A DNA stretch of 48,821 nt from Pseudomonadota bacterium. Lineage in GTDB: Bacteria > Pseudomonadota > Gammaproteobacteria > Steroidobacterales > Steroidobacteraceae. The position numbers and the translations under genes were made by a program. The DNA is taken from the NCBI GenBank assembly GCA_021809525.1, contig JAKAYU010000004.1, forward strand, positions 1 to 48,821, given 5' to 3'. Below, in pieces: positions 7,072 to 41,874 of the stretch. The notes under the pieces are model-generated. The model searched no databases. It was not told the origin of the DNA and was given only the letters and a program-made list of their open reading frames with translations. The stretch's first letter is position 1. The number at the start of each line of letters is the position of its first letter.

Positions 7072-7129
7072 ATTGGGCCGGGCGGCGCAGGTTGTGCCGC
7101 GGCGGCCGGATTCTGCTAAGTTCGTTTTC

Positions 7130-8215
7130 ATGCCTAATCCCGACCGCGCCCGCCGTGCCTGGACGGACCAAGCGGTCCGCCGGATCGAAGCGGATTTCAA
7201 TCGTTCGGCCGATACGCACCTGATCCCGATCGAGCTGCCGCACCACCCGGGCATCCAGCTGTACCTGAAGGACGAGTCGAGCCACCCCACCGGCAGCCTC
7301 AAGCATCGCCTCGCCCGCTCGCTCTTCCTCTATGCGCTGTGCAGCGGCTGGATCGGCCCCGACACCCCCGTCGTGGAAGCCTCGAGCGGCTCCACGGCGG
7401 TCTCGGAGGCGTATTTCGCGCGCATGCTCGGGCTGCGCTTCATCGCGGTGGTGCCGCGGAGCACCGCGGCGGAGAAGATCGCGGCCATCGAGTTCCAGGG
7501 CGGGGAGTGCCACTTCGCCGATGAGCCCAACCAGGTCTACGCCGAGGCCGAGCGGCTCTCGCGCGAGGTGTGCGGCCACCACATGGATCAGTTCAAGTAC
7601 GCCGAGCGGGCGACCGACTGGCGCGGCAACAACAACATCGCCCAGTCCATCTTCCACCAGCTCGGCCGCGAGCGGCATCCCGTGCCGCGCTGGATCGTGT
7701 GCGGGGCCGGCACCGGCGGCACCTTGGCGACGCTCGGCCGCTTCGTGCGCTACAACCATTTCCCCACCGAGATCTGCTTGAGCGATCCGGAAGGCTCGGT
7801 CTTCCACCGGCACGTCGCCGATCGCAGCGTCACTGCGATCGGGCGTTGCGAGAGCTGCATCGAGGGCATCGGCCGCCCGCGGGTCGAGCCGTCGTTCATC
7901 CCGGATGTGATCGACCGCGCCCTCGTGGTGCGCGACGCCGACAGCATCGCCGCGGCGCGGGTGCTGAGCGAGCGGCTCGGGCGCCTGTGCGGCGGCTCGA
8001 CGGGCACGAACCTGTGGGCGTGCGCGTCTCTGATCGATGAGATGGTCGCACAGGGTCTGAGCGGCTCGGTGGTGTCGATCCTGTGCGATCAGGGCGAGCG
8101 GTACGCCTCGACCTACTTCAACGATGCCTGGGTGGCGGACAAGCGGCTCGATCTGGCGCCGGGCATGCAGGCGATGCGCGAGTTCTTCGCCGGGCGAGGG
8201 TTTCGGCCGCGTTGA
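7130..8215 (+). CDS. PLP-dependent cysteine synthase family protein
   Basis: This 361-residue fold-type II PLP enzyme resembles cysteine synthase and cystathionine beta-synthase. Lys58 in PTGSLKHR is the expected Schiff-base lysine. [19 protein letters not shown] is the substrate and phosphate loop, and [14 protein letters not shown] is the glycine-rich PLP phosphate clamp. It is longer than CysK (about 320), and GTGGT replaces the usual SGGT motif, so the substrate may not be O-acetylserine. The start at 7130 lies within a frame open to 7058; the upstream part overlaps the FNR box and does not look coding. It may be induced without oxygen. No other sulphur gene is near. Confidence 0.85.
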
Positions 8216-23005: not shown

Positions 23006-23050
23006 CCGGAGGCCTTGACGCGCACTAGGGTCGCAAGCGAGACTGACCCT

Positions 23051-23231
23051 GCGTGCTGGTTCCCCGGTGAAAGCTGGGGAGGCAAGAGGGAACGCGGTGA
23101 CGCTCCATGAGCCGAAGCCGTGGCTACCCCCGTAACTGTAGGCGGAGAGTCCGCGTCCATCACGGCCACTGGGAAACTGGGAAGGCCGGACGCATGATCA
23201 AGACCCGCGAGCCAGGAGACCTGCCAGTACG
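23051..23231 (+). promoter_or_regulatory. Cobalamin riboswitch upstream of btuB
   Basis: The stretch shows the conserved B12-box landmarks in order: GGTGAAAGCTGGGGAGGCAA, GGCTACCCCCGTAACTGTAG, GCCACTGGG, CTGGGAAGGC and GAGCCAGGAGACCTGCC. The ends CGTGCTGG and CCAGTACG pair as the closing stem. It precedes the TonB-dependent receptor gene by about 217 bases. In this RNA class, adenosylcobalamin binding lowers expression, so the receptor should be made when B12 is scarce. I saw no T-run terminator after it, so control may be at translation. Confidence 0.92.
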
Positions 23232-23447
23232 GTCACCCAACCGGTGGGCGGGGCGTACCACACGGAGCGGTCATTCGCAGCGGTGACATTGAGACCGATG
23301 CGCAGGCCGTGGGACAGCATTCCACGATCAGTGAATTCAGGTGCGTGCGCGGAACGTGGGTTTCGCGTGCGCTGCCTGTGCCGGACCGTGCCACTCGCAT
23401 CGGCTGTCGTTACCACGCCCCTCGGGGCACATGTACGGAGCACTGCG

Positions 23448-25621: not shown

Positions 25622-26572
25622 TCATGTGCTGTCGCAGGAGGTACCGCGGCCGGTTCGGAACATTCCCATCGGTGCCATATGGAGCTCCTGCGCCTGGCAG
25701 ATCAGCGGCGTGAGGTCCGCCGGGTCGGTCTCTGGGTGGAACAGCATGCCCGCGATCGTTCCGGAGTGGGAGATCTGCAGACCGAGCGCGTCGCGCGCGG
25801 CGGCGAGTGCGCACAGCGAGTTGAATCCCCGCATGGGCGCAGTGATCTGATGCAGTTCGGCGCTGTGCGTTGCCACCGTGGCGATTTCGCCGGCATCGCG
25901 CGAGCGGAACGCGGCACGTGCTCGTTCGACGAGCTCGGTATAACGAGCCCGCATATCATCACCTGGCACGGGCAGGGTCAATGTATCGCGGCCACCGGAC
26001 CGCGGGTCGGTGTCTATGCTCAGTACGAGGAACTCCGGCATCCAGTGCCCCCAGTGCTCGAGGACGCGGCCTTCGCGCTGTGCGAATAGCACGACGCTGT
26101 CGAACATGAGTGGATCGGAGGCGACCTCGGCCCTCACCGCAAGCTCGGCGAGCAGGGCGGAATCGGCTCGCGCGCCGCATGCGGCATATACCGCGCGGAG
26201 CGTCGCGAGCACGTCGCTGGTCGAGGAGCCCATCCCGAGACCGGTGGGTATCGGGCTGTGTAGCCGCAGCACACCGCCGGTGGCGGTGGCACCGAGCGCA
26301 TCGAGCGCCAATCGGGCTGCGCGCGCGGATTTCACCTTGCCGGCGGGGTGGACCTCGATCTGCCGTCCTGGCGCTAACCTGAAATGCGCCTCGCTGCCGG
26401 CGTCTGCGACCGGCAGAGTCACCAGACAGGGGACAGGATGTGTAGCAGCCTGCGATTGCGGCCACCATAGACCCTGGAGAATCTCGCCGTGATGGCGGCC
26501 GGCACGACCGATGGCGAGACCTGTTCCCGAGGCCGGCTTGCACGCCGGTGCGTCCGTCAGTCCGGGTGCCAT
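25622..26572 (-). CDS. pduX: GHMP-family kinase, probable L-threonine kinase (PduX-like)
   Basis: The 316-residue protein carries the GHMP kinase ATP loop SPIPTGLGMGSSTSDVLATL, an N-terminal GRAGRHHGEILQG and a C-terminal glycine-rich loop near ISHSGTIAGMLF. PduX phosphorylates L-threonine, supplying the substrate that CobD decarboxylates to aminopropanol phosphate for the nucleotide loop. It is the last gene of the cob operon and overlaps cobC by 16 bases, which supports this role over other GHMP kinases. The start at 26572 is chosen over a longer open frame because sequence before it looks non-family. Confidence 0.78.
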   Translation of the reverse strand: MAPGLTDAPACKPASGTGLAIGRAGRHHGEILQGLWWPQSQAATHPVPCLVTLPVADAGSEAHFRLAPGRQIEVHPAGKVKSARAARLALDALGATATGGVLRLHSPIPTGLGMGSSTSDVLATLRAVYAACGARADSALLAELAVRAEVASDPLMFDSVVLFAQREGRVLEHWGHWMPEFLVLSIDTDPRSGGRDTLTLPVPGDDMRARYTELVERARAAFRSRDAGEIATVATHSAELHQITAPMRGFNSLCALAAARDALGLQISHSGTIAGMLFHPETDPADLTPLICQAQELHMAPMGMFRTGRGTSCDST

Positions 26573-27156
26573 GTCTCGCGGACCACCAACGGGTTGTCGG
26601 CGCCTACCGCTCGTGCGCAGAACAGGGCAGTTGCGTAACGGGATGACAGTTGCCATGCCGCCCTAGCGTCAACCCCGCAATAAGCCTGCAACAGGAACTG
26701 CAGTACGCCCCGGTGTGTCACGATTGCGAGGGTCGCACACGAGGCGTCCTGCAGCCATTCATCGGCTGCCCTGCTGATGCGTGCGGTGAACTGCTCATAC
26801 GGCTCCGCGTGGGGTGGTGTAAAGGTCGCAAATCCGTTCAGCCAGCGCTGTGCCTGGTCCGGGAAACGAGTTGCGATCTCGTCCCATCGCAACGCTTCCC
26901 AATCGCCGAAGTGCAACTCGCGCAATGCCGGGGTGAGCGTGGCCATGATCCCATGCTGCGCGGCCAGCGCCTCGGCGCAGCGGCGGGTGCGCAGCAGATC
27001 GCTGCTGAGGAGTCGATCAAGCGGCGTTTGGTCGAGTTTTCGCTGCAGCGCGTGCAGCTGTGCCAGGCCGCTTGCACTCAAGTCTGGGTCGCTGTGTCCG
27101 CAAAAAGTTCCGGCAAGATCGGTGGCCGGGTGGCGGATCAGAATCAGCTGTCTCAT
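26557..27156 (-). CDS. cobC: Alpha-ribazole phosphatase CobC
   Basis: This 199-residue histidine phosphatase has the phosphohistidine motif as LILIRHPATD (RHP instead of the common RHG), Glu in ALRELHFGDWE, and the second His in THRGVLQFL. In cobalamin synthesis it removes phosphate from alpha-ribazole phosphate or from adenosylcobalamin phosphate. The ATG at 27156 overlaps the cobS stop as ATGA; a GTG at 27162 is a possible alternative. Position between cobS and the threonine kinase fits the nucleotide-loop pathway. Confidence 0.88.
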   Translation of the reverse strand: MRQLILIRHPATDLAGTFCGHSDPDLSASGLAQLHALQRKLDQTPLDRLLSSDLLRTRRCAEALAAQHGIMATLTPALRELHFGDWEALRWDEIATRFPDQAQRWLNGFATFTPPHAEPYEQFTARISRAADEWLQDASCATLAIVTHRGVLQFLLQAYCGVDARAAWQLSSRYATALFCARAVGADNPLVVRETWHPD

Positions 27157-27905
27157 CGCCACGCGCCGCAGAGATAAACGGCAATGGCGGTAATCTGGAT
27201 GGCAGCGCCGAAGCAGTCGCCCGTCACGCCGCGTATCCGCCGCCGGAAATATAATCCGCTCGCAGCGGTGGCCAGCAGACAGGCCATCCAGGGGCGCCAG
27301 CTGGCCGCGTGCAGACTCGCCAAGGTAACCGCGGCGGCAATCAAAGTTCCGATCGCCATCGCCGGTGGTGAGATGGAGCCGGCGAGCCGCGCGCCCTGCC
27401 CCGCAGACGGTCCGCCTTGACGGGCCGATGGCAGAAAATACGCAAGTGGGAGCACGCTCCAGCGCGAGAGCATTTCCGCCGTGACGAGATAGGCGAGCGC
27501 ATCGGGTGCCGGGAGTGCTGCTATGAGTACAATCCGCAGCAGGAGCGATAGTGCGACGGCAATCGCACCGTAACTGCCGATGCGGCTGTCGCGCATGATG
27601 GCGAGCGCCCGATCGGCCGTCGCTCCGCCCCCGAAGCCGTCGGCGCTGTCGGCGAGTCCGTCCTCGTGAAGGGCGCCGGTGATCAGCACCAGAAAAACCA
27701 CGGTTGCGGCAGCCGCAGCGGTCGGTGCGAGGTGCGGACGGACAGCCGCGTCGATACCCGCCGCTGCCAATCCGAGCAGCGCCCCGACCAAGGGAAAATA
27801 GGGGGCTGCCCGCGCGAGCGAGACCTCACCGAGCCAGCGCTGCGGCAGCGGAATGCGCGTGAGAAATTGAACCGCGCCGAGGAATTCGCGGATCAGACGC
27901 CTCAT
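27153..27905 (-). CDS. cobS: Adenosylcobinamide-GDP ribazoletransferase CobS
   Basis: The 250-residue integral membrane protein starts with FLGAVQFLTRIPLP and has the metal-binding motif HEDGLADSADGFGGG, both typical of cobalamin synthase. It joins adenosylcobinamide-GDP to alpha-ribazole (phosphate) at the inner membrane. The start at 27905 overlaps the cobT stop by 4 bases, and cobC follows with another 4-base overlap. Confidence 0.94.
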   Translation of the reverse strand: MRRLIREFLGAVQFLTRIPLPQRWLGEVSLARAAPYFPLVGALLGLAAAGIDAAVRPHLAPTAAAAATVVFLVLITGALHEDGLADSADGFGGGATADRALAIMRDSRIGSYGAIAVALSLLLRIVLIAALPAPDALAYLVTAEMLSRWSVLPLAYFLPSARQGGPSAGQGARLAGSISPPAMAIGTLIAAAVTLASLHAASWRPWMACLLATAASGLYFRRRIRGVTGDCFGAAIQITAIAVYLCGAWR

Positions 27906-28987
27906 GCGTTCGCGGTACTCACTCCTGCCGAGGTGAACGTCGCCATTTCCGTCAGAATGTGCATGGCCGAGGTGATGATCGGCATCGCCAGCACAGCACC
28001 CGTGCCCTCCCCCAGGCGCATGCGCAGGTCCAGAATGGGTTTGATGCCGATGTGGTGCAGCAGGTGCGCGTGCCCGGGTTCCTCGGAGCGGTGGCCGGCG
28101 AGCAGGTAATCGCGCACGGGCGGGGCGAGCGCGACGGCGAGCGCTGCGGCCGCTGTGGCAATGAAGCCGTCGACGACGATGATTTTGCGGTGGCGCGCGG
28201 CGCCGAGAAAGAAGCCCGTCATCGCCGCGATCTCGAGACCGCCCACGCGACGCAGGAGCTCGAGCGGCGCGATCGTCTCGGTGCGCCATAGGGGCACGTG
28301 CTTACCCAGTGCCTCATCGATCACCTGTCGCTTGCTTTGACGCGCAGCCGAACTGATGCCGGTGCCTGCCCCCGTGACCGCTTCGACCGGCTGACGGGTG
28401 AGGGCGGCGGCGAGGGCGCTGGCCGCCGTCGTATTGCCGATGCCCATCTCCCCGGCAGCCACCAGGTGCACTTGCCGGCCGTGGGCGTCATCGGCGGCCT
28501 CAAGGCCGACGTTCAGCGCATCGGCCAGCTCGCATTGCGACATCGCCGGCTCGACGCGCAGGTTGCGGCTACCGCGGCGGACCTTCCGTTGCCATAATGC
28601 GCCGTGAGCGGAGAAATCGGCATCCACTCCAACGTCGATGATCGTCAGCTGCACCTCATGAAGCCGCGCGAGCACGCTGATGGCCGCGCCGCCGTGCAGA
28701 AAATTCTCGACCATCTGCGCAGTCACGGCGCTCGGGTAGGCGCTGACCCCCTCCTGAGTCACGCCATGGTCGGCGGCGAACACGTATGCGGCCTTACGCA
28801 GCGGCAGCGACCAGCTTCCTTCGGCGATGGCATAGCACTGCGCGGCGATCGCTTCCAGCTGTCCGAGGCTGCCGGGCGGCTTGGTCAGCTGATCCAGCCG
28901 TTGATCGGCCTCGATCCGCAAGCGCTCTGTCACGGGCCGGATGTGCGCCAGCGTCTGCTGCAACGAGTCGGGAATGGTATCGCTCAT
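27902..28987 (-). CDS. cobT: Nicotinate-nucleotide-dimethylbenzimidazole phosphoribosyltransferase CobT
   Basis: This 361-residue enzyme activates the lower ligand base to alpha-ribazole phosphate. Family motifs are LTKPPGSLGQLE near the N-terminus, VFAADHGVTQEGVSAYP, GEMGIGNTTAASAL and the catalytic Glu in RLGEGTGAVLA. The ATG at 28987 is chosen because family sequence begins there. A 142-base gap separates it from cobU upstream, the only sizeable break inside the operon, so an internal promoter is possible though none is clear. bluB in the same operon would supply its substrate. Confidence 0.95.
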   Translation of the reverse strand: MSDTIPDSLQQTLAHIRPVTERLRIEADQRLDQLTKPPGSLGQLEAIAAQCYAIAEGSWSLPLRKAAYVFAADHGVTQEGVSAYPSAVTAQMVENFLHGGAAISVLARLHEVQLTIIDVGVDADFSAHGALWQRKVRRGSRNLRVEPAMSQCELADALNVGLEAADDAHGRQVHLVAAGEMGIGNTTAASALAAALTRQPVEAVTGAGTGISSAARQSKRQVIDEALGKHVPLWRTETIAPLELLRRVGGLEIAAMTGFFLGAARHRKIIVVDGFIATAAAALAVALAPPVRDYLLAGHRSEEPGHAHLLHHIGIKPILDLRMRLGEGTGAVLAMPIITSAMHILTEMATFTSAGVSTANA

Positions 28988-29129
28988 GTCCAACGGACCT
29001 CTCTGATGAATTGTATGGTTCCGGCGAGGCGGGCATCGCGCGAGCCCGGCCGCGGCATGCCGTTGATACTCATCGGGATCGCCGCGCTGGCCCGCGCGGT
29101 CCGAAGTCGACCGCGTGCAGTGATCGAGC

Positions 29130-29651
29130 TCATTGCGGCTGTCCCTTGAGTTCCAAAGGCAACCCCGCGATCGTGAATGTGACGCGATCGCAGAGCATCG
29201 CCAGTGTCTGATGCAGTTCGCCGCTGGCGTCGAGGAACTGCCGCGACAGCTCACCGAGCGGCACGACACCAAGGCCCGTTTCGTTACTGACGAGAATGAG
29301 CGTACCGCTGAGTTCCGCCACGGCTTCGCAGAGACTGTGGCGCTCGTCGTCGAACCGCTCGGGTCTTAAGCACAGCAGGTTGGTGAGCCAGAGCGTCAGG
29401 CACTCGACCAGCAGGCACCGGTCGGGCGAGGCGTTGGCGAGCAGTACGCGACCGAGTGCGAAGGGCTCCTCGACCGTGACCCATTCCGGGGGGCGCCGCG
29501 CGCGGTGTTGCCTGATCCGCGCATGCATCTCGGCATCGTCGGCGGGGATCGCGGTGGCGACATACAGTACTTGACGGCCGCTCGCGCGGGCACGCTGCTC
29601 CGCCAGCCGGCTCTTGCCCGAGCGCACTCCGCCGAGAATCAGCTGCTTCAT
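29130..29651 (-). CDS. cobU: Adenosylcobinamide kinase/guanylyltransferase CobU
   Basis: The 173-residue enzyme phosphorylates adenosylcobinamide and then attaches GMP. It shows the P-loop [14 protein letters not shown] at the N-terminus, the guanylylated-His region [11 protein letters not shown], and [13 protein letters not shown] and [11 protein letters not shown]. The ATG at 29651 overlaps the cobQ stop by 4 bases. It prepares the corrinoid for CobS. Confidence 0.95.
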
Positions 29652-31132
29652 CGGGGAGTTGTCCTTTGCGGCGGGCTCCCTACTTCGCCGGGCTCGATTG
29701 AGCCGAGCAGCAGATGCAGGCGCACGGAACTCTCCACGGCATCCGCCAGGTCCTCCAGCGCCCGCTCGCGTCGCAGACGATGATCGAGCGCAATGGGCGC
29801 GGTGAGCCCGGCCCAGGCGAGCAGTGCGCTGCACGCGGCCGGCTCTTCGAACAACCCGTGCACATACGTGCCGAGCACTTGTCCGTCCGGCGATATCGCC
29901 CCATCCGCTCGTCCATCCTCGAACTCGATCAGGGGGCGCTCGAGCGCTGCACCGCTGCTGCGGCCCGTGTGGATTTCGTAGCCGCGGACTGAGGCGGACG
30001 TGAGCGTCAGACGGCCGCTGACGTTGCGCAGCTGCTTTTCTCTTTCCAGCGTGGTGTGCAGAGCGAGCCAGCCGAAGCCTGGACGGGTCCCCGCGTATCC
30101 CTCGACTCCATGCGGATCGGCGATCGTCTCGCCAAGCATCTGCAAGCCGCCGCAGATGCCGACCAGCCGGCCTCCGTAGCGCAGGTGTCGTGCCAGTTGC
30201 TCGCCCCAGCCGCGCTCGCGCAGCCAGGCGAGATCGGCGCACACGGACTTCGAGCCGGGCAGGATGACAAGATCGGCGCCCGGCACATCGAGCGGGTCCA
30301 CGGTGTAGCGGAAGTCGATCTGCGGATGCTGGCGCAGCGGGTCGAAATCGGTATGGTTGGAGATCCGCGGCAGGACGGGCACGACCACGCGCAGCCGCGG
30401 CGCCTGCGCGGCGTGTGTATCCGGCTCGCGGCGGATGCCGTCCTCGGCGTCGAGATGCAGGTTCTCGAGGTACGGCAGCACCCCGAATACCGGCTTGCCG
30501 CTGTGCCTCTCGAGCCACTCGAGCCCGGGATCGAGTAGGGCCCGATCGCCACGGAAGCGATTGATCACGAAGCCGGTGACGCGCGCTCGCTCCGACTCGC
30601 TGAGCAGCGCCAACGTGCCGACCAGCTGCGCGAATACCCCTCCGCGGTCGATGTCCGCGATCAGCGCCACGGGACAGTCGATGGCCTCGGCGAATCCCAT
30701 GTTGGCGATATCGTCGGTGCGCAGGTTGATTTCCGCCGGGGAGCCCGCACCTTCGACCAGGACGAGCTCGTATGCGCAGGCCAAGCGGTGGTAGGAATCG
30801 AGCACCGCCTGGCGCGCGATCCGCTTGTACTCTTGGTACCCGGCTGCATCGAGCGTGCCGATCGGACGGCCCTGAATGATCACCTGTGCCCCGCGGTCGC
30901 TTTCCGGTTTGAGCAGGACCGGATTCATGTCCGTCGTCGGGGCAATGCCCGCCGCCTGCGCCTGCAGTGCCTGAGCGCGTCCGATCTCACCGCCATCGCT
31001 CGCCACCGCGCTGTTCAGTGACATGTTTTGCGGCTTGAAAGGGGCGACGCGTACGCCATGGCGCCGCAGCACTCGGCACAGGCCCGCAACGAGCGTGCTT
31101 TTGCCCGCATCAGAGCTTGTGCCCTGGATCAT
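29648..31132 (-). CDS. cobQ: Cobyric acid synthase CobQ
   Basis: This 494-residue glutamine-dependent amidotransferase adds four amide groups to adenosylcobyrinic acid a,c-diamide. It has the P-loop [36 protein letters not shown], and a class I glutaminase domain with the nucleophile Cys in [12 protein letters not shown] and the His in GTYVHGLFE. The ATG at 31132 sits in an ATGA overlap with cobD. Its presence with cobB shows that the cell handles intermediates earlier than cobinamide. Confidence 0.95.
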
Positions 31133-32139
31133 GAGTGCGCGCGCGGCCACGACCGAGTCTCCTGATAGGCCCCGAGCGCGCGCTCGAGGCGCGCCCACTC
31201 GGCATCGTCAGCGGGAAGGCCGAAGCGCAAGCCGCTCGGGGCCTCGAACAGGCGCGTGAGGATGCCCTGGCGCGCCAGTGCCTCGTGAATTGCCGCGGCG
31301 GCCGGTGTGGGTACCCATTGAAACAGGCTGCAGCCGCCTGCGGAGGGTAGCCCACAGCGCTGTAGCAGCGCGGTGAGGCGCGCGCACTGCGCATGAAGTC
31401 TCGCGCGCATGGCACTTTGCCAGGGCCGGTCCGCGAGCGCATGCTGCGCGATGAAGCGGGCGGGACCGGCGATGGTCCAGGGTCCCATCCGTTCCTTGAG
31501 GAGCTCGAGGAACCCCTTATCTGCCAGCACGAATCCGACGCGCGCGCCGGCGAGCCCGAAGAACTTGCCGAGTGAACGCAATACTATAAGTCCCTCGCGC
31601 TGGCTGCAGGAGACGATGCTGTTCTCCGGGTTCGCATCGGCGAAGGCTTCGTCAACGATGAGCCATCCGCCACGGGCGGCCAGGCGCGCATGCCACTCGA
31701 TGAGCTGAGCGTGCGCAATGCGTTCCCCGGTCGGGTTGTTCGGATTGACGAGCACCAAGACATCGAGCAAGTCCGCGGCAGATGGGCAGTCGGCGAGCGC
31801 GAGCGGCGCGACCTCGTGTCCCGCCTCGCGCCAGCGCAATGCATGCTCGGCATAGCTCGGGGCGAGTACTCCGACCGTCCCGGGCGCACGCAGCTGCGGT
31901 AGATGCATGATCGCGGCCTGAGAGCCTGCGACCGGCAGGACATGCGGCACGCCGAAATAGCGTTGTGCCGCTGCGATGAGCCCGTCATCGTCCTCCGGCA
32001 GGCGGGCCCAGGCCGAGCGGGGCACATCGATACCGCACCAGGACGTCGGATTGACCCCGGTCGACAAGTCGAGCCACTGCTCGAGCGCGATGCCATAGCG
32101 CTGCGCTGCGCGTCGCAGCCTTCCGCCATGTTCAAGCAC
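31129..32139 (-). CDS. cobD: L-threonine-O-3-phosphate decarboxylase CobD
   Basis: The 336-residue fold-type I PLP enzyme begins [14 protein letters not shown] and LDLSTGVNP, as CobD does. It has [20 protein letters not shown] and the PLP lysine in [15 protein letters not shown]. It makes (R)-1-amino-2-propanol phosphate from threonine phosphate, which the PduX-like kinase at the operon end would provide. It overlaps cbiB by 8 bases and cobQ by 4. Confidence 0.93.
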
Positions 32140-33076
32140 GGAACGACCGCCCGACCAGCACGATCAGCGCCGCTGCACCGATCCACACGAGCATTGCGCG
32201 CACAACGAGTCGCCGAGCGCGGGAGATATCTCCGAGATCGGCCGGCCGTCCCTCGCCCAGCGTGGAGCGTTCGTGCCAGCGCCCGTGGTAGAAGGCCCCG
32301 CCGCCCAGGCGAATGTGCAGTGCGCCGGCACCGGAGGCCATCACCGGACCGGCGTTGGGACTGTCCCATGCCGGGGCCTGGAGCCTCCAGCAGCGCAGTG
32401 CGATCCCAGCGTGACCGACTACCGCATAGCTGAATGCGGTCAGGCGGGCGGGCAGGAAATTCATCAGGTCATCGAGCCGGGCCGCCGCCCACCCGAATCG
32501 GCGATAGTGCTCGGTACGATAGCCCCACATCGCATCCAGCGTATTGATGAGCCGGTAGGCCAGTGCCCCCGGGACTCCGGTCAGGAGGAACCAGAACAGC
32601 GCACCGAATAGCGCGTCGTTGCCGTTTTCGAGCAACGACTCCACGGTCGCGCCAGCGATCCGCTGGGCATCCATGTCCGAGGTGTCGCGGCTCACGATGG
32701 CGCCGACGCGGCGACGGGCCTCGGTCAGATCGCCGCGGCGCAGCGCGCGTTCTACTGCAATAGCATGCTCATGCAGGCTCCGGTGGCCGATGACGAGATA
32801 GAGAAACCCGATGGCGAGCAGTGGAGCGATGTAGGTGTATCGATCGAGCGCCCAAAGCGCGAGCACGGGGGGCGCCACGGCCGTCAGCACCGCAAGCACA
32901 CCGCCGAAATAACCACGCGCTGCCGCGCTTGTGCCGGGGCCGCTGCTGGCGCCGGGGTTCAACCATTTCTCCAGACGTTGCGCGAGCACGCCAAAACCAA
33001 CCAGCGGATGCCAGCGGCGGGGCTCACCAAGCAGTCCATCGAGCAGCGCCGCGGCGATGATCTCGAAGATCGTCAT
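32132..33076 (-). CDS. cbiB: Adenosylcobinamide-phosphate synthase CbiB
   Basis: This 314-residue membrane protein attaches the aminopropanol arm to cobyric acid. Family features are GEPRRWHPLVGFG, IGHRSLHEHAIAVERAL, SRDTSDMDAQRIAGATVES, ENGNDALFGALFWF and GYRTEHYRRFGWAAARLDD. The ATG at 33076 overlaps the stop of the btuF-like gene as ATGA; an ATG two codons upstream (33082) is also possible. CobD follows with an 8-base overlap. Confidence 0.93.
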   Translation of the reverse strand: MTIFEIIAAALLDGLLGEPRRWHPLVGFGVLAQRLEKWLNPGASSGPGTSAAARGYFGGVLAVLTAVAPPVLALWALDRYTYIAPLLAIGFLYLVIGHRSLHEHAIAVERALRRGDLTEARRRVGAIVSRDTSDMDAQRIAGATVESLLENGNDALFGALFWFLLTGVPGALAYRLINTLDAMWGYRTEHYRRFGWAAARLDDLMNFLPARLTAFSYAVVGHAGIALRCWRLQAPAWDSPNAGPVMASGAGALHIRLGGGAFYHGRWHERSTLGEGRPADLGDISRARRLVVRAMLVWIGAAALIVLVGRSFRA

Positions 33077-33945
33077 GGCCATTCGGGGCGCCCAGAGGAG
33101 GCGGCCGAATCGGCGTAATTCGCCCCGCTCGCCGCCGCGCCCGGGTTGGCCATCTCCTGGGCGCACTGCGTGATGATCGCGCGTAACTGGCGTAGCCCGT
33201 CGCTCAGGGCAGCGGGACCCGGCTGCAAGATGTCGCAGGATTTGATCTCGAACAGCCGTCCGTGGCGTACTGCCGGGACGTCCTGCCACCCGGAGCGCTC
33301 AAGCACTCGGCGGCGATCGAACTTCTTGCCGCACCATGAGGCGATCAGCACCTCAGGGGCGCGTCGGACCACCTCGAGCGGGTCGGCGATGATGCGATCC
33401 TTGGCGCCGGTTCGTGCGGAGAGGTCCGGGAAACAGTCCTCGCCGCCGGCAATCCCGATGAGTTCCGCCGTCCAACGTATACCGCTGATCAGCGGGTCAT
33501 CCCATTCCTCGAAATACACGCGCGGTCGGTACGGCAGCGCGAGCGCGGCGCGGCGCGCCGCCTCAAGTCCACCGCGCAACCTGTCGATCAATGCCCGCGC
33601 GCGGTCTGTCGCCCCGACCATCCGGCCGAGCATGCCGATAAAATCGAGAATCTGCTCGACGCTGCGCTGATTGAAAATATGAACCTCGAGCCCCTTGCGG
33701 GCGAGCTCGGCGGCGATATCGGCCTGCAGATTGGAGAATCCGAGTACGAGGTCCGGTTCGAGTTCGACGATCCGCTCGATCTTTGCGCTGGTGAACCCGG
33801 AGATCTTGAGTTTTTCATGGCGCGCTCGCGGCGGTCGCACGGTGAATCCGGAGATGCCGACGATGCGATCCTCCTCGCCCAGAAGGTAGAGTGTTTCCGT
33901 CGTCTCCGCGCTGAGGCAGACGATGCGGCGCGGCCCCGCGCTCAT
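33073..33945 (-). CDS. BtuF-like cobalamin-binding protein lacking a signal peptide
   Basis: The 290-residue protein has the fold of periplasmic B12-binding proteins: IVCLSAETTETLYLLGEEDRIVG, ELEPDLVLGFSNLQADIAAEL and RPRVYFEEWDDPLISG. But it starts MSAGPRRIVCLS directly at the binding domain, and the ATGA overlap with bluB fixes that start, so there is no signal peptide. No btuC or btuD gene is in the window. It may bind corrinoid in the cytoplasm, or get out by another route. Lying within the operon, a cobalamin role is near certain, but import is not. Confidence 0.82.
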   Translation of the reverse strand: MSAGPRRIVCLSAETTETLYLLGEEDRIVGISGFTVRPPRARHEKLKISGFTSAKIERIVELEPDLVLGFSNLQADIAAELARKGLEVHIFNQRSVEQILDFIGMLGRMVGATDRARALIDRLRGGLEAARRAALALPYRPRVYFEEWDDPLISGIRWTAELIGIAGGEDCFPDLSARTGAKDRIIADPLEVVRRAPEVLIASWCGKKFDRRRVLERSGWQDVPAVRHGRLFEIKSCDILQPGPAALSDGLRQLRAIITQCAQEMANPGAAASGANYADSAASSGRPEWP

Positions 33946-34601
33946 TCGGGGTCCTCCGGCCAGCGATTCTCGTACAACATGTCGGCCAGCGGCCGGGGCT
34001 GCCGCCAGCGATCGAGCGCGAGGCGCGGCGCTGGATCAAATGCGTGCACGTGGCCGAGGCATAGCACTGCGATCGGCCGCGCGTTGGGCGGAAAGTGCAG
34101 CAGGGCGGCGAGCGCGTGCGGTTCGAACATCGAGACCCAGCCCAGACCTAGTCCTTCCGCGCGGGCGGCGAGCCAGAGGTTTTCAATGGCGCAGGCCACG
34201 GACGCCAAGTCCATCTCCGGGAGCGTCCTTCGTCCGAAGATCTCGTTTGTACCACCGTCCAGCAGGGCGGCAACGAGCAGCTCACCGCAATCGAGAATCC
34301 CCTCGACCTTCAGCCGCAGGAATTCATCACGGCGCTCGCCGAGTGCATCGGCCGTGCGCGCTCGCTCCTGTTGCACGAGAGCGTGGATCGCGACGCGCAT
34401 GTCAGGGGCGGTGATGCGCAGTAACCGCCATGGCTGGGACAGGCCGACGCTGGGGGCGGCATGTGCGCTCTCCAGGATGCGCCGGAGCGTCTCGGGCTCG
34501 ATGGGTGAACGCACGAAGCTGCGGACATCGCGCCGCTCGCGAATCACACGGTAAATCGCCGCGCGGTCCGTCTCGTCGTAGCGGTGGATGGAGTGGCTCA
34601 A
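33942..34601 (-). CDS. bluB: 5,6-dimethylbenzimidazole synthase BluB
   Basis: This 219-residue flavoenzyme of the nitroreductase fold cleaves FMNH2 with oxygen to give dimethylbenzimidazole, the lower ligand of B12. Motifs are IRERRDVRSFVRSPI, AHAAPSVGLSQPWRLLRI and GWVSMFEPHALAALLHFP. It overlaps cobB and the btuF-like gene by 4 bases on each side. Because the reaction needs oxygen, the cell makes this ligand only when air is present, which contrasts with the anaerobic genes at the left of the window. Confidence 0.94.
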   Translation of the reverse strand: MSHSIHRYDETDRAAIYRVIRERRDVRSFVRSPIEPETLRRILESAHAAPSVGLSQPWRLLRITAPDMRVAIHALVQQERARTADALGERRDEFLRLKVEGILDCGELLVAALLDGGTNEIFGRRTLPEMDLASVACAIENLWLAARAEGLGLGWVSMFEPHALAALLHFPPNARPIAVLCLGHVHAFDPAPRLALDRWRQPRPLADMLYENRWPEDPE

Positions 34602-35890
34602 GGCTTAAAGAGGGCCGCTGCGGCCCGCGGATTGGAGGGAAAGTAGAAATGGATGTAGCTTGCGGTCAACGCGCCTTGGCGGAACACGGCTTCGCCGCAG
34701 CCTCCCCTCTGCGTGCTCGCATGCAGCAGCGGCTCGAGCGAGGTCTGCAGGCGTGAGTGATGGAAGCTGTGGCCGCGCAGCTCCCCCTGCGGCAGCTCCA
34801 CACCCTGCAGCGCAAGCGCCTGCAGCTTCGGCTGCATGGTCGTCTCGCCGGGAAGGAGTCCGCTCATCGCATGCCGCCGACCCTGGAGATCGATCAAGTG
34901 CTCGAAGAGCAGCATCATGCCGCCACACTCGGCGAGCAGCGGCTTGCCGGCCTCGACATGGCGGCGTAGTGCCTCGTGCAGAGGGTGGTTGGCAGAGAGC
35001 CGTTCGGCATGGAGTTCCGGATAGCCGCCCGGCAGGTAGATCGCATCAGCCGGAGGCGGCACGTCCTGTAATGGGGAGAAAAAGCGGGTCGTGGCGCCCA
35101 TCGCCCGCAGCAGATCGAGATTGGCGGGATATACGAAAGAGAGCGCTGCATCGTGGGCCACTGCGATCGAGACGCCGCGAAGAAGCGCAGGTGGATGAAG
35201 ATCGACGTCTGCGTGGAAGGTCACCCGCGGAATGTGCTCGATCCGCACTGAGGCGAGTGCCTGCGCGGCGCGATCAATTCTCGCGTCGAGGTCGGGGATC
35301 TCCTCTGCCTGGAGCAGCCCCAGGTGACGATCGGGGAGCTCAATGGCGTGATCGGCGCACAGGGCGCCGAGAAAGGAAATCCCAGCGGCACGGCCCGCAA
35401 GGCTCCCGGCGAGCAAGGCGGCGTGCCCGGGGCCCGCCGTGCGGTTCGCTACCACGCCGTGAATCGCGAGGTCCGCACCATAGACCTTCAGTCCCAGCGC
35501 AAGCGCACCGAAAGTCTGTGCCATCGAGCTGCCGTCGATGACGAGGAGCACAGGCAGGTTGAATTGGCGGGCGAGCTCGGCACTCGAGGGGGTGCCATCA
35601 TAGAGTCCCATCACGCCTTCGACGAGGAGGAGGTCGCAGTCTCTTGCGGCCTGGTAGAGGAGGTTGCGGCAGTGCGCGAGCCCGCCCATCCACAGGTCGA
35701 GTTGGTAGACGGGATGACCGGCGGCTCGAGCGAGAATCATCGGGTCGATGAAGTCGGGACCGGTCTTGAATACACGCACGCGTTTGCCCTGGCGCACAGC
35801 CTGTCGGGCGAGCGCCGCTGTCACGGTGGTCTTCCCCTGTCCCGACGCCGGGGCGGAGATCAGGACGGCGGATGCTTCAGTGCTCGTCAT
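34598..35890 (-). CDS. cobB: Cobyrinic acid a,c-diamide synthase CobB/CbiA
   Basis: The 430-residue amidotransferase has the ATP loop ISAPASGQGKTTVTAAL at its N-terminus, VRVFKTGPDFIDPM, LLVEGVMGLYDG and a C-terminal glutaminase domain with the nucleophile Cys in LAECGGMMLLFEHL. It amidates the a and c side chains of cobyrinic acid. The start at 35890 lies 15 bases after cobO and the end overlaps bluB by 4 bases. No ring-building genes are in the window, so the substrate is made elsewhere or salvaged. Confidence 0.94.
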   Translation of the reverse strand: MTSTEASAVLISAPASGQGKTTVTAALARQAVRQGKRVRVFKTGPDFIDPMILARAAGHPVYQLDLWMGGLAHCRNLLYQAARDCDLLLVEGVMGLYDGTPSSAELARQFNLPVLLVIDGSSMAQTFGALALGLKVYGADLAIHGVVANRTAGPGHAALLAGSLAGRAAGISFLGALCADHAIELPDRHLGLLQAEEIPDLDARIDRAAQALASVRIEHIPRVTFHADVDLHPPALLRGVSIAVAHDAALSFVYPANLDLLRAMGATTRFFSPLQDVPPPADAIYLPGGYPELHAERLSANHPLHEALRRHVEAGKPLLAECGGMMLLFEHLIDLQGRRHAMSGLLPGETTMQPKLQALALQGVELPQGELRGHSFHHSRLQTSLEPLLHASTQRGGCGEAVFRQGALTASYIHFYFPSNPRAAAALFKP

Positions 35891-35905
35891 GACTTACCGC
35901 CCTGC

Positions 35906-36535
35906 CTAGAGCTCGATCCCCCGCTGTGCGCCGATGCCTGCGTCAAAGGCGTGTTTCACGATGCACATGTCCGTCACGGTGTCGGCCAGTTCGACCAGCT
36001 CGGCGGGCGCTCCGCGCCCCGTGATGACGGCGTGCTGCATGTGAGGTCGGCTGCGCAAGGCATCGAGGACGGTGTCGATGTCGACATAGCGGTAGCGCAA
36101 CGCAATGTTGAGCTCATCGAGCACCACGAGGGCCAGGGCGGGATCGCGCAGCATCGCGGCCGCAACCTCCCAGGCTGCCTGCGCTGCCCGCACATCGCGT
36201 TCGCGGTCCTGGGTCTCCCAGGTAAAGCCCTCGCCCATGGCGTGAAAGCGCACCTGCGGGAAACGGCGGAAGAAGCTCGCTTCCCCGGTCAGATACTTGC
36301 CCTTGATGAACTGCACCACGCCGACTTGCATGCCGTGCCCGAGCGAGCGGGCGACCATGCCGAAGGCGGAGGAACTCTTTCCCTTGCCCTTGCCTGTGAG
36401 CACCAGCAATACGCCCCGCCGTTCTGATGCGGCGGCGATGCGTTCGTCCACGATCGCCTTCCTGCGCCGCATCCGTTCGCGGTGGCGTTGGGCCTCGGTG
36501 TCGCCGGAGGCGGGCGTACCTTCGCTGGTGGGCAT
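35906..36535 (-). CDS. cobO: Cob(I)alamin/corrinoid adenosyltransferase CobO (BtuR)
   Basis: This 209-residue enzyme adds the 5'-deoxyadenosyl group to the cobalt. It has the CobO-type P-loop LVLTGKGKGKSSSAFG, then VGVVQFIKGKYLTGE, FTWETQDRERD and LVVLDELNIALRY, ending with the family tail DAGIGAQRGIEL. A 33-base gap separates it from btuM. It can act both in new synthesis and on imported corrinoids. Confidence 0.95.
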   Translation of the reverse strand: MPTSEGTPASGDTEAQRHRERMRRRKAIVDERIAAASERRGVLLVLTGKGKGKSSSAFGMVARSLGHGMQVGVVQFIKGKYLTGEASFFRRFPQVRFHAMGEGFTWETQDRERDVRAAQAAWEVAAAMLRDPALALVVLDELNIALRYRYVDIDTVLDALRSRPHMQHAVITGRGAPAELVELADTVTDMCIVKHAFDAGIGAQRGIEL

Positions 36536-36568: not shown

Positions 36569-37147
36569 TCATGGCGTTTGCAGATGGGCGCGTGCCGGCA
36601 TGCGGCGGGTCACCGCGACGTGACCCAGCGCCGCGAGTCCGACGTAGGCGCCCGTGACGAGCATGAAGTAGCCGTACCAGCTGAGGAAATTGGACCACCA
36701 GCCGGCGATGCTCACATGCTCGATGCGGGCGCCGAGCCAGTAGAAGCTCCCCTCGGTGAGCAGGAAACAGGCGCTCACCGAGAGCGCGAGGGTGAGGGCG
36801 AGTCGCCTCAGATCGCCCGGCGCTCTCTGGTAGCGACGGCTGAGCCACGCGCCTCCGAGCCATAGGAGCGAATATGCCGGTACGATGAACCAATACGCCG
36901 CCGTGACACAATAGTCGCTGAAGCCGTAGTAACGGATCGCGGCAAAATCGACCGCAACGGCCCCAACGAGCAGCGCAGGAAGCGCCCAGCGCCACTCGGA
37001 GGCCAGGTAGAATCCAGCGACAAAGAACACCGCCCACGAGGCATCAGGTGGCGCCCACGCGCTGCCGCAGTGACCGAAGCGGGTGGCCGCCATGGTCGCG
37101 GCGAGCGCCAGAAAGCCGAGGCGCCGGGATGATTTCTGGGTAAGCAT
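36569..37147 (-). CDS. btuM: BtuM-type cobalamin transporter
   Basis: The 192-residue protein has about six hydrophobic segments and the N-terminal motif RFGHCGSAW-PPDASWAVFF. Cys80 falls in GFSDYCVTAAYWF. BtuM of Thiobacillus denitrificans, an S-component-like B12 transporter that works without the usual ECF module, binds the cobalt through a cysteine at the same number, Cys80. Length, topology, that residue and the cobalamin riboswitch upstream all agree. GGAG precedes the ATG at 37147. It would take B12 across the inner membrane after BtuB brings it across the outer one. Confidence 0.88.
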   Translation of the reverse strand: MLTQKSSRRLGFLALAATMAATRFGHCGSAWAPPDASWAVFFVAGFYLASEWRWALPALLVGAVAVDFAAIRYYGFSDYCVTAAYWFIVPAYSLLWLGGAWLSRRYQRAPGDLRRLALTLALSVSACFLLTEGSFYWLGARIEHVSIAGWWSNFLSWYGYFMLVTGAYVGLAALGHVAVTRRMPARAHLQTP

Positions 37148-37561: not shown

Positions 37562-37696
37562 CTGTCCACTCCTACACACGCCACGTGCGTCGAGATCGGC
37601 TCGGAGAGCGCGCGCGGAGACGACAGAAGGCTGCGATACGCAGATATCGTAACCGGTCTGACATCGCCCAACGCGAGTCGCCGAGTGCGTGTCTCC

Positions 37697-37905
37697 GGCC
37701 GGTCTCCGGACTTGCGAGTGGACCTGAAATCCTCAGACCGGCACCTTCCCGTGCCTGTGGCACAGTGGTTCTGCGCGGTCTGTGGCTCGCTTACCGTTGC
37801 GTGGGCAGCGCCGGATTTGCATCCACTGAGCGGACGCGCACCGGCTTCCCGTTTCAGTCCAGGGAAACTGATTTCCTGGACCACCTGAGACGGCAGGCAG
37901 CCTAC
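37697..37905 (-). promoter_or_regulatory. Cobalamin riboswitch upstream of btuM and the cob operon
   Basis: On the minus strand the landmarks are GAAACGGGAAGCCGGTG, AAATCCGGCGCTGCCC, ACGCAACGGTAAGCGAGCC, CCACTGTG, GGGAAGGTGCC and CAAGTCCGGAGACCGGCC. These match the classic B12-box core closely. It heads the btuM-to-pduX operon, about 136 bases before the small ORF. No T-run follows, so translational control or Rho is more likely than an intrinsic terminator. The 215 bases on its far side, up to the end of the radical SAM gene at 38121, hold no gene I can see. Confidence 0.93.
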
Positions 37906-38120: not shown

Positions 38121-39500
38121 TCAGTGCGCGAGGTCGAAGAGGGTCTCGGTGCCATCGTCCCAGCCGTCCCAGAGGTAATCGTCAGCTTTTCCATCGGCAA
38201 TCAAGCGCAGGGCGTAATTGACCTGGTCCTTGTAGAACGCGCAAAAAGCGCCGGTGCCGCCCATCGCGCCGTTCATTTCGTGCGCCTCGGCCGGACAGGG
38301 TGAGCCGCAGAAATGGCGGATCGCGCACTCACTGCACGGTTTGAAGGCCTCCACGTTCCGTCCGGTCACGGCTCTGAAGGCATCGGAGGCCAGCGCCGCT
38401 TCGATGCCCTCATCAGCCAACAGATGGCCCCCATTGAATCGGGGCAGACCGATGAATTCGCTGCAGGGATAAAGGCTGCCGTCCGCGGCCAGAGCGAAGA
38501 AGGCGCGGCCGGCGCCGCAGGGCGAGATGTCGCACATCAACCGCCGTGCCGTCGGCGCCACGATGGCGATGAGGATGTTGGCGAAATTGGCCACGACGAG
38601 CTTCCTGCCGCTGTCGCGATAGAGTTCGTACGTGCGATCGAGCGCGGCAAAGAACGCCCGCGACAGCGCTGCGTCGTCCGGCCTGACGGTCCGTGCGCCG
38701 GGGAGGGTGCAGCGGACCGTGTTGAGCATGCAGGTGGGCACCTCACGTGCGTGGAACAGCTCGATCATGGCGGTGAGATGAGGCAAGTTTTCGGTGGTGC
38801 ACGTGGCAATGACGCTCCACGACTCGTAGCCTCTTAGGCGATCCATCGCCGCGAGCACCCGGTTGTGCACACTCCTGCTGCTCCAGGTGCGCCGGGTGGC
38901 ATCGGTGATTTCGGCGGATGGCCCATCCAGCGACACACCGATGCTGACATTTCTCGCAGTGAGAAAACTCACCGCCCCGTCGTCGAGCAGCGTGCCGTTG
39001 GTCTGCAGCCCGAAGATGAAATCATCGGCGAATGCGTCGATGGCGGCGAACACGGCCTCCCGGTTCATCAGCGGCTCGGCGCCGTGAAAAATTGCACGAG
39101 GTTTGCTGCCTTCCGGCATGGTCGAGCGGAAATAATCACGCAACCGGCTGAGCGAGGCGAGCAGCCGATCGAGGCTCATGTGCCCACCGCTGCGGCGCTG
39201 CGCTGCGGGCAGATAGCAGTACCGGCAGTTGAGATTGCAGCGCTCGGTGGGATTGAGATAAACCCCCGAGGGCTTCAGCTCGAAGCGCAGCGCATGCAGC
39301 TCGCGCCTGCAGGCCTCGGCGTGCTGGCGGTAGACGTCACGAAGCGGACCGCCAGCCAGGGTGTCGGCCACTCGTGTCTTGTCGAGCAGGGCCCAGAAGG
39401 CGCTATCGGGATCGAGGAGGGCGGCATAGACCGGATGGCCGATGTCCAAGGGCGTGAACGTCGGTTCGGGATGTGTCCCGGCTGGCGAGCGGGCGCTCAC
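38121..39500 (-). CDS. cbpB: Peptide-modifying radical SAM/SPASM enzyme
   Basis: This 459-residue protein has the radical SAM cluster motif CNLNCRYC (Cys88, 92, 95) after a family-like N-terminus, then GAEPLMN and GVSLDGPSA. A C-terminal SPASM domain follows with many cysteines (CDISPCGAGR, LYPCSEF, CSECAIRHFCGSPCPAEAHEMNG, CAFYKDQ) for auxiliary Fe-S clusters, the layout of enzymes that modify ribosomal peptides. The GTG start at 39500 overlaps the stop of the small peptide gene as GTGA, so the two are coupled. I recall NCBI family names CbpA/CbpB for such a pair but could not check. The modification is unknown. Confidence 0.85.
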   Translation of the reverse strand: MSARSPAGTHPEPTFTPLDIGHPVYAALLDPDSAFWALLDKTRVADTLAGGPLRDVYRQHAEACRRELHALRFELKPSGVYLNPTERCNLNCRYCYLPAAQRRSGGHMSLDRLLASLSRLRDYFRSTMPEGSKPRAIFHGAEPLMNREAVFAAIDAFADDFIFGLQTNGTLLDDGAVSFLTARNVSIGVSLDGPSAEITDATRRTWSSRSVHNRVLAAMDRLRGYESWSVIATCTTENLPHLTAMIELFHAREVPTCMLNTVRCTLPGARTVRPDDAALSRAFFAALDRTYELYRDSGRKLVVANFANILIAIVAPTARRLMCDISPCGAGRAFFALAADGSLYPCSEFIGLPRFNGGHLLADEGIEAALASDAFRAVTGRNVEAFKPCSECAIRHFCGSPCPAEAHEMNGAMGGTGAFCAFYKDQVNYALRLIADGKADDYLWDGWDDGTETLFDLAH

Positions 39501-39649
39501 CGAGCGCCCTTCTTGTCCATCAGCACATAGTGCGAGAGGCCGACGCCGTCCGGATTGCAGGTCTTGCGCACGGCAATAGCCGGAGCGATTGCCGGAGAAG
39601 GGATGGAAACTCGCTGGGCTTGCGCCTGGGTGAGAACGGTCTGGGTCAT
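39497..39649 (-). CDS. cbpA: Small precursor peptide for the radical SAM enzyme
   Basis: The 50-residue peptide starts MTQTVLTQAQAQRVSIPSP, continues with an Ala/Ile/Pro stretch (AIAPAIAV) and ends in a charged part with one cysteine (RKTCNPDGVGLSHYVL, then MDKKGAR). A GAGGAG site precedes the ATG at 39649. It overlaps the radical SAM gene by 4 bases and is the first gene after the riboswitch terminator. A leader followed by a distinct core next to a SPASM enzyme is the usual form of a radical-SAM-modified peptide. The conserved-looking C-terminal half is the likely core; no protease or exporter gene is adjacent. Confidence 0.75.
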   Translation of the reverse strand: MTQTVLTQAQAQRVSIPSPAIAPAIAVRKTCNPDGVGLSHYVLMDKKGAR

Positions 39650-39675
39650 GATCCACTCCTCGGGATGTGCGCCAA

Positions 39676-39729
39676 CAAAAAGGGCTCCGGCTAGGCGCAC
39701 GCAATCGCATGCGCCCAGCCGGAGCCCTT
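39676..39729 (-). terminator. Intrinsic terminator of the riboswitch
   Basis: On the minus strand AGGGCTCCGGCT-GGCGCA pairs with TGCGCC-AGCCGGAGCCCT, a long stem with few mismatches, followed at once by TTTTGTT. It lies between the B12 aptamer and the peptide gene start 27 bases on. This is the expression platform of a transcriptional OFF switch. Confidence 0.85.
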
Positions 39730-39749
39730 GCCAAGACTCCGAATCAGTT

Positions 39750-39912
39750 CGAGACGTCTTCTGGCTACCGGATCAGCCGGATCGCTGCACCTTCCCGCCG
39801 GGGTGATCCCCGTCAGTGGTGGGTCTTCCAACCCTGCAGCGGCCGTCCCCGGATACAGCGGCGGGCCCGCCACGGATTTGCACCGTGTTCCGTTTCATCG
39901 AACCGAAGCGTG
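39750..39912 (-). promoter_or_regulatory. Cobalamin riboswitch upstream of the peptide/radical SAM pair
   Basis: Minus-strand landmarks are GGTTCGATGAAACGGAACAC, GGTGCAAATCCGTGGCGGG, CCCGCCGCTGTA, CCACTGACGG, GGCGGGAAGG and CCGGTAGCCAGAAGAC. This is the variant with the GCGGGCCCGCCGCTGTA block, different from the two other B12 riboswitches here. With the terminator that follows, high B12 should stop transcription before the peptide gene. Confidence 0.9.
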
Positions 39913-40114
39913 CCGCGATTCTCGTTCCGGCACGGCCGCTCGTCAAGCTCGGCCGCCAAGCCGGCGAATCCGGTTTCATCGGCTGAACGACCCACCCATT
40001 CGGTGAACTCGACGGCCACCGGTGGACGGGTGCCGGTTGCCATGCAAGATCACCTGACACGCTGTCTCGATGGGTGACCCAACGCCCTAGATCGCAACTG
40101 TCGGCGCGGTCGCT

Positions 40115-40166: not shown

Positions 40167-41114
40167 TCAGAAATTAACCGTGGTCGTCTGATTGGCCGTC
40201 ACGGTCGCTGCGGTGCCTGCGGCCGGTATGAACGTCACCGTACTCGTGCCGGTGCTCGAGGTGCTTGTGCACGCCACTGCGACGGTATAAGGACCTGCGA
40301 GCAGGAATGGCTGATCATAGGTATAGCTGCCCGAGGCCGAGAGCGCTATCTCCGGCTCGACCACCGGGGTCGCGCTGCTCGAGGGCGTGACGGTTCCGGA
40401 GAAGATGTCCACTTGGGCATTCGGCAACGGGCCGCTACCCGAATAGCCCGCAAGGCAGGCCGAAACGCTTTGCAGCGTCGAGAGCGCCACAGTGCCGCTG
40501 ATCGTTCCAGCCTGGACATTATTAATCAGACGCAGCGCCGGCTTCAGGATGTAGTCCTGGATACCGCCGCCGGAGGTCTGGCCGGGCGGAGCCGTGATCG
40601 ACTGCTGCAGCATGAAGTCGATCGTGAAGTTGGCCACTTGATTGGCTGTCATGGTGAAGCCCTGGACGAGCTTCAGCCCCGTCTGGGCTCCGCTCGGGAT
40701 GACGAGCGGGTATTGGGCCCCATTGATCTCGATGTACGAGTTCGCCACCGTGCCGTTTGATGACACATTGAGCAGCAGGCGGATCCAATTGTAGTTGCCT
40801 GCCGGGACGGAAGCACCGCTGAGGAGTGAGGCTTCGTTTCCATTCTGCTCGTTCAGCAGGTTGATCGTCTGCGGGCTGCTGAAATTGAAGGTCACGGGGC
40901 TGCCTCCGTTGCTTGGCTGCAGTTCAACGCCCGTGAAGGAGACGACCACTGCGCTTGCTGAGGCGACTGGACCGTCGGTGACGCCGAGATTCATGGTGGC
41001 GGGGGCAGACGAGGAACTGCTCCCACCGCAGGCCGTCAGTGGGAGTGTGAGCAACGCGAGAGCGATGCCGCGCAGACGGCGACGTGACACAATGGTGTGC
41101 ATAACGTATTTCAT
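40167..41114 (-). CDS. DUF4382-type lipoprotein
   Basis: The 315-residue product begins with a lipoprotein signal (RLRGIALALLTLPLTAC, lipobox LTAC, then GGSSSSS). The mature part starts MNLGVTDGPVASASAVVVSF, which is the DUF4382 pattern, and is followed by a Ser/Thr/Gly-rich beta-strand region ending TVTANQTTTVNF. It should be anchored in the outer or inner membrane facing the periplasm. Its role is unknown. GGAG lies before the ATG at 41114; the longer frame to 41219 looks non-coding. It is not obviously linked to the cobalamin genes beside it, from which a hairpin separates it. Confidence 0.8.
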   Translation of the reverse strand: MKYVMHTIVSRRRLRGIALALLTLPLTACGGSSSSSAPATMNLGVTDGPVASASAVVVSFTGVELQPSNGGSPVTFNFSSPQTINLLNEQNGNEASLLSGASVPAGNYNWIRLLLNVSSNGTVANSYIEINGAQYPLVIPSGAQTGLKLVQGFTMTANQVANFTIDFMLQQSITAPPGQTSGGGIQDYILKPALRLINNVQAGTISGTVALSTLQSVSACLAGYSGSGPLPNAQVDIFSGTVTPSSSATPVVEPEIALSASGSYTYDQPFLLAGPYTVAVACTSTSSTGTSTVTFIPAAGTAATVTANQTTTVNF

Positions 41115-41874
41115 GACAATCAATTCTCCGGCGATGGGGGCGTCGTGCCCGTTTGGCTCCACATTCTGCACGACACAGACCGACAGTCGTCCAATGGGGC
41201 TCGCGACATTCTTCAGCAAATCCTCGCGCGCCGCGGCTGGTCCCGACCGACGGTCATCCGTGGCCGACCGGCGGCAAGCGGCGTGAATTTGACGTAATCA
41301 CGTGCTGTGAACTTGCGTTTGGCGGCGAGCTGCACGACAGACCACCGGGCGGCTCAAGCGTGCAACGGACAGGGCATTGTGTAACGCTCCGACAGTGAGG
41401 TGATGAATTGTGTTGGCGGTTCAGTCTTTGAACGCGCAAGCGCCCCTTGGGTTGACCCGATTCCGTACACGGGTAGGACTTTGCGCATCACCTTGACCTG
41501 CGCACCTGCTCCTCTTGATCGGAATTCCTCGCTTCCATGGCGTCATCGCAAAGCAGTCTCCCGCGGAACCGGGAGACGCCTGTCAGGAGCCCGCAGGCCG
41601 TTCGAGTACCGCGAGGCCGGCGACTGGCCGCTATGCATGGTGGCCGAACGCGCTCGATCGCCGGAGAGACGGCTCATACGGGCCTCTGAAGCGTTCGGCC
41701 GCGCCCCTGGCTGCCGTTCAATGCCCGGTAGTGCGGGAATTTCTCCAGTTCCAGGCAGACACCCCATTTCCGGGGCGTCACCGTCCAGTCGCAGCCCGCC
41801 GCAGTATGCGGCATCGACCCGAGGATTGCGCCGCGCGCAAGCCGGAATGTGCGAGCGGCACGGGATGCGTTCCC
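41115..41874. other. 760-base stretch without a recognisable gene
   Basis: Open frames exist on both strands but none has a family signature and a convincing start together. The best small candidate is minus-strand 41674-41814 (46 codons, with KWGVCLELEKFPHYRALNGS), which reads protein-like but has no clear ribosome site. The region is less GC-rich by eye than the genes to its left. It may be decayed sequence. Confidence 0.5.

Follow-up and report, generated by a model that had tools for sequence, protein, structure and literature searches.

What does a bacterium gain by placing a short peptide gene and its modifying enzyme behind a cobalamin riboswitch? The question is raised by a locus in a Pseudomonadota bacterium of the Steroidobacteraceae (Gammaproteobacteria), found in the window, the whole stretch of DNA analysed here (48,821 nucleotides (nt) of contig JAKAYU010000004.1, assembly GCA_021809525.1). 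On the minus strand, a cobalamin riboswitch is followed by an intrinsic terminator, a Shine-Dalgarno-like sequence, the precursor peptide gene cbpA and the radical S-adenosylmethionine (SAM)/SPASM maturase gene cbpB, whose GTG start overlaps the TGA of cbpA by 4 bp (Table 1). We regard the identity of this locus as a riboswitch-led CbpA/CbpB pair as near certain.

Both proteins passed the cut-offs of their NCBIfam families. CbpA scored 52.2 bits against TIGR04164 (cut-off 35), with the match at residues 25–47, and matched no other NCBIfam family. CbpB scored 703 bits against TIGR04163 (cut-off 375). The names CbpA/CbpB, suggested in a preliminary description of this DNA, are correct because NCBIfam names the two proteins so. 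That description had also placed a B12 aptamer at 39750–39912, which lies inside the RF00174 match (72.0 bits, gathering score 31.5, E 6.5e-16, whole model covered). The strong terminator, the 50-codon peptide gene and the SPASM radical SAM gene with the GTGA overlap that it reported are all present.

Conservation and distribution of the pair

A contig scan gave 209 CbpB relatives, and the 80 best of them were retained for analysis. Locus counts refer to these 80, with phyla assigned from record titles, and nine named phyla are represented. The preliminary description had staked its reading beforehand on conservation of the peptide and on its presence beside relatives of the enzyme. A core of the form R-K/R/Q-x-C-x3-G-x-G-L-S-H was found upstream of cbpB in 80 of 80 relatives, and alignment showed seven of its positions (R, C, G, G, L, S, H) to be invariant in all 81 cores, the window included. 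The Tyr after the core His and the Leu two residues further each vary once among the 81, and the leader ahead of this near-invariant core is variable in length and letters. The only differences between the window's core and that of L041, among its nearest relatives, are at the third positions of five codons. These third-position changes and the core conservation rule out cbpA as a gene-calling artefact. Additionally, a sister genome (G560; L132, 6245–6550) carries a decayed cbpAB in which cbpB is reduced to a remnant of the SPASM part and one invariant core residue is changed.

Among relatives of the window's genome, CbpB above its cut-off is rare, being found in one of the 369 genomes of a class sample, namely the window's own, and in 4 of the 396 genomes of an order sample (E 1e-60), all from one genus. 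CbpA was present in 11 of the 398 genomes of a separate phylum sample, and CbpB adjoins it in 9 of the 9 of these that were given as loci, the window's own apart. Named strains of Dechloromonas, Aromatoleum and Propionivibrio also carry the pair, and since it is only two genes long, cbpAB is directly testable there. Phage or viral copies of CbpB were looked for as well; the four phage matches (21.7–26.2% identity) were not CbpB-like, and none was confirmed in viral contigs.

Some loci depart from the single module. One genome of the genus (G685; the same contigs occur in G760) contains two riboswitch-cbpA-cbpB modules, L041 and L042, each then followed by a second cobalamin riboswitch. The CbpA of L083 (between 2116 and 2539) has two tandem cores, the sole case seen. 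On a Methylovirgula plasmid (L040, 9804–11383), the pair lies near pqqA, pqqD and pqqE and already bears the names cbpA and cbpB in the record's annotation.

Linkage of cbpAB to cobalamin

An RF00174 match at or above the gathering score, 73–233 nt before the core, was found in 67 of the 80 loci, across eight named phyla. These comprise Pseudomonadota (45 of 50), Planctomycetota (6 of 8), Myxococcota (5 of 5), Chloroflexota and Thermodesulfobacteriota (3 of 4 each), and Nitrospirota, Verrucomicrobiota and Actinomycetota (1 of 2 each). The single Bacillota locus had none, and both unassigned loci had one. A local oddity or chance occurrence of the riboswitch is thereby ruled out. The preliminary description had called B12 control of such an enzyme unusual; the link to B12 stands, but it is no peculiarity of this locus.

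The 13 loci without a riboswitch fall into three kinds. Three of them (L044, L092, L100) have an upstream sequence shorter than 300 nt. Another five (L062, L064, L076, L089, L099) are located within cobalamin operons; in two of these, L064 and L089, which belong to different phyla, cbpAB is flanked by cobalt uptake genes on one side and the chelatase CbiX on the other. On the tree, L064 has L062 and L076 as close relatives, so the five operon loci amount to about three separate cases. The last five (L047, L091, L096, L108, L114) show no B12 link. A low-threshold RNA scan of L047, L091, L096, L108 and the plasmid locus L040 found no riboswitch, and L114 had none at the gathering threshold.

The preliminary description had read the leader as an attenuation layout of aptamer, terminator and gene, and this reading holds. 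In the window, the 60-nt stretch at 39673–39732(-) folds at -52 kcal/mol (z -10.3; none of 200 shuffles was as good) and ends in a T run. A hairpin of -8 kcal/mol or lower with a T run lies between riboswitch and core in 60 of the 67 riboswitch-bearing loci, whereas composition shuffles gave 6.8 on average.

A candidate antiterminator strand, CGGAGUC, complements GGCUCCG (39720–39726) in the 5' arm of the terminator. In a swap test, in which terminator arms were exchanged among loci, the own pairing averaged -13.1 kcal/mol against -10.5 for swapped arms over 56 loci, and -10.6 against -8.6 over the 26 loci with a different arm sequence; none of 2000 permutations was as low in either set, and kinship among loci inflates the result. 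Against composition shuffles, the pairing stands out in only 7 of 59 loci, which counts against the proposed mechanism. A competing antiterminator is supported by the swap test and, in most loci, not by the composition shuffles.

When adenosylcobalamin is plentiful, the aptamer would bind it and the closing helix would sequester the antiterminator strand, so that the terminator would form and cbpAB would not be transcribed. Under B12 shortage, the antiterminator would win, and both cbpA and cbpB would be made. This direction of the switch, off with B12, is likely in view of how the leader is arranged and how established cobalamin riboswitches work.

Predicted activity of CbpB

In a 56-row alignment, the cysteines C88, C92 and C95 of the CxxxCxxC motif of CbpB are invariant, as are C323, C328, C346, C389, C392, C398, C402 and C420. 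CbpB scored 50.4 bits against TIGR04085 (cut-off 27), and its match to the Pfam SPASM model was slightly below the cut-off (20.8 vs 21.5). The predicted structure has a pLDDT (predicted local distance difference test score) of 88. Among the matches listed by VIA-align, 5why and 5wgg were its best in the PDB; we take both to be CteB, the SCIFF maturase. As modelled, CbpB is thus closest to a thioether-forming maturase. Within the full model, residues 16–73 form three strands and two helices, and the alignment with 5wgg begins at residue 8. We infer that CbpB recognises the variable CbpA leader, probably through an N-terminal domain resembling the RRE (recognition element of ribosomally synthesised and post-translationally modified peptides). 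It would then modify the near-invariant core, probably by forming a thioether from the invariant Cys.

Possible role of the product

We judge the chances to be evenly balanced that CbpA/CbpB is a riboswitch-gated peptide-maturation module whose product serves the supply side of cobamide metabolism. This role is favoured by the five loci that have no riboswitch of their own but lie in cobalamin operons. The product would be a conserved, cofactor-like modified peptide, presumably acting inside the cell. It may bind or handle cobalt or an incomplete corrinoid, or serve as an electron donor in a corrinoid step. The best fit is a role that concerns corrinoids generally.

The targets of cobalamin riboswitches fall into four classes, for B12 synthesis, transport of B12 and its precursors, cobalt transport, and isozymes of B12-dependent enzymes; these classes name no modified peptide, and the main text of the source, additional files apart, has no mention of radical SAM (PMC3766115). 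We advance tentatively, as a possibility with the balance somewhat against it, that CbpA gives rise to a new cofactor, or metal or corrinoid ligand, of ribosomal origin whose production is confined to B12 shortage, and that it represents a fifth class of target. Such a peptide would help the cell to obtain, load or keep cobalt or corrinoids, by analogy with methanobactin, which does likewise for copper. A modified peptide conserved behind a cobalamin riboswitch over many phyla would be a missing piece of the B12 economy.

Several observations weigh against a supply-side role. Eight of the 80 loci have no B12 link, three of them being those with less than 300 nt upstream, and the Methylovirgula plasmid copy has no detectable riboswitch. 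No third gene is common to more than 10 of the 80 loci, and therefore no binding, export or cleavage partner stands out; the exception is one mixed single-linkage cluster covering 29 loci; of its 39 members, 25 are reading frames that overlie the leader, with 14 other proteins making up the rest. The window genome, which is 94% complete, gave no CbiC match and contains just two tetrapyrrole methylases, so that it probably does not synthesise the corrin ring. It also has no CbiM, although other cobalt transporters were not searched for. Among CbpB genomes, most of which are bins by title with completeness not stated, 39 of 50 gave a CbiC match and 36 of 50 a CbiD match; at least a fifth may therefore live by salvage or be incomplete bins. 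Furthermore, cbpAB was not seen to track corrin synthesis within the genus, where CbpA occurs in 6 of 58 genomes (one copy decayed) and CbiC in 8 of 58, with two shared.

In a narrower form of the supply-side reading, the product would be a cobalt-binding peptide, a chaperone or metallophore, feeding cobalt to the chelatase in corrin synthesis. The position of cbpAB in L064 and L089, the invariant Cys and His of the core and the frequency of CbiC in CbpB genomes agree with it. It is nevertheless doubtful given the gene content of the window genome, where the cobalt-insertion version is weak; as a common role, cobalt insertion is weakened too. CbiM was found in 12 of the 24 CbpB genomes tested, in 6 of 12 with CbiC and in 6 of 12 without it, and therefore tracks neither the pair nor corrin synthesis; here too, other cobalt transporters were not searched for. 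The CbiM family also includes nickel importers. The preliminary description had offered scavenging of cobalt or cobalamin, or replacement of a B12-dependent function. Its supply side is favoured by the operon loci, including the CbiX neighbours, and its cobalt part is weakened by the missing CbiC and CbiM.

Its other suggestion was replacement of a B12-dependent function. A product that would take over or spare such a function under B12 shortage, for example as a small redox cofactor like pyrroloquinoline quinone (PQQ) or mycofactocin, is unlikely. Isozymes of B12-dependent enzymes are a known cobalamin regulon class, as outlined in the main text of PMC3766115, but a Pfam scan of 58 neighbour frames, a minority of the neighbours of the 80 loci, found no such isozyme, and cbpAB instead joins biosynthesis and uptake operons. 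The variable leader and near-invariant core including Tyr recall mycofactocin; the precursors of mycofactocin and PQQ are likewise short, with a variable front, a near-invariant end, a radical SAM partner and a scatter over phyla (PMC3023750). These systems differ from cbpAB, beside which no further modifying enzyme, biosynthesis gene or client dehydrogenase stands out. Finally, in many radical SAM/SPASM peptide systems the product has an antimicrobial or signalling function, and that of CbpA could by that token be a secreted bacteriocin or a signal released under B12 shortage. This is very improbable for a core near-invariant across nine named phyla, with no transporter or immunity gene standing out.

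Relation to known systems

The two protein families TIGR04164 and TIGR04163 are already known, the window proteins differ in nothing from them, and the pair is annotated on the Methylovirgula plasmid, whose copy, unlike that of the window, lacks a detectable riboswitch. CbpB scored 85.4 bits against the SCIFF maturase family TIGR03974, below the cut-off of 425. CbpA has one core Cys, whereas the SCIFF peptide has six, and the probable B12 control of CbpA/CbpB is a further difference. The second-best NCBIfam match of CbpB, the PapB ranthipeptide maturase (NF047865), reached 117.4 bits, below its cut-off of 340. With cobalamin riboswitch regulons, cbpAB shares the aptamer family and the terminator between aptamer and gene. 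No published work on the CbpA/CbpB pair was found in a search with limited coverage of subscription journals, and the NCBIfam curators may already have noted the B12 link. Within the literature searched, two findings seem new in print: that the pair is linked to cobalamin riboswitches across many phyla, and that its peptide core hardly varies.

Cobalamin genes and other features of the window

The locus shares the window with further cobalamin-related features (Table 1).

Table 1. Features of the cbpAB locus and cobalamin-related features elsewhere in the window.
Feature	Position	Strand	Basis or content
Cobalamin riboswitch aptamer, cbpAB leader	39735-39940	-	RF00174
Candidate antiterminator 5' strand CGGAGUC, overlapping the aptamer 3' end	39733-39739	-	Complements GGCUCCG
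Intrinsic terminator, long G+C-rich hairpin and T run	~39676-39728	-	Folding energy
Shine-Dalgarno-like GAGGAG ahead of cbpA	39656-39661	-	Read directly in the sequence
cbpA, 50-aa precursor peptide; conserved core residues 25-47	39497-39649	-	TIGR04164
cbpB, radical SAM/SPASM maturase, 459 aa, GTG start	38121-39500	-	TIGR04163
Second cobalamin riboswitch, before late-step cobalamin operon	37680-37903	-	RF00174, 107.6 bits
Late-step cobalamin genes	25622-36535	-	CobA/CobO, CobB/CbiA, BluB, BtuF-like, CbiB, aminotransferase, CobQ, CobU, CobT (DBI_PRT), CobS, phosphatase, GHMP kinase
Third cobalamin riboswitch, before TonB receptor	23040-23242	+	Rfam scan

The fourth cobalamin riboswitch of the genome, on contig C250, precedes a frame that resembles a TonB receptor plug by eye. 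The late genes include a cobyrinic acid diamide synthase (34598–35890), even though the genome yielded no genes for corrin ring synthesis; the cell may take up an early corrinoid, or contigs may be missing. Between the second riboswitch and CobO lies a 192-aa frame (36569–37147) with no Pfam match at E 0.1. A protein with B12-binding, radical SAM and DUF4070 domains is encoded at 5071–7302. Upstream of the cbpAB riboswitch, a DUF4382 protein is encoded at 40167–41219, and related frames lie upstream of cbpAB in L041–L043, one of them confirmed by Pfam.
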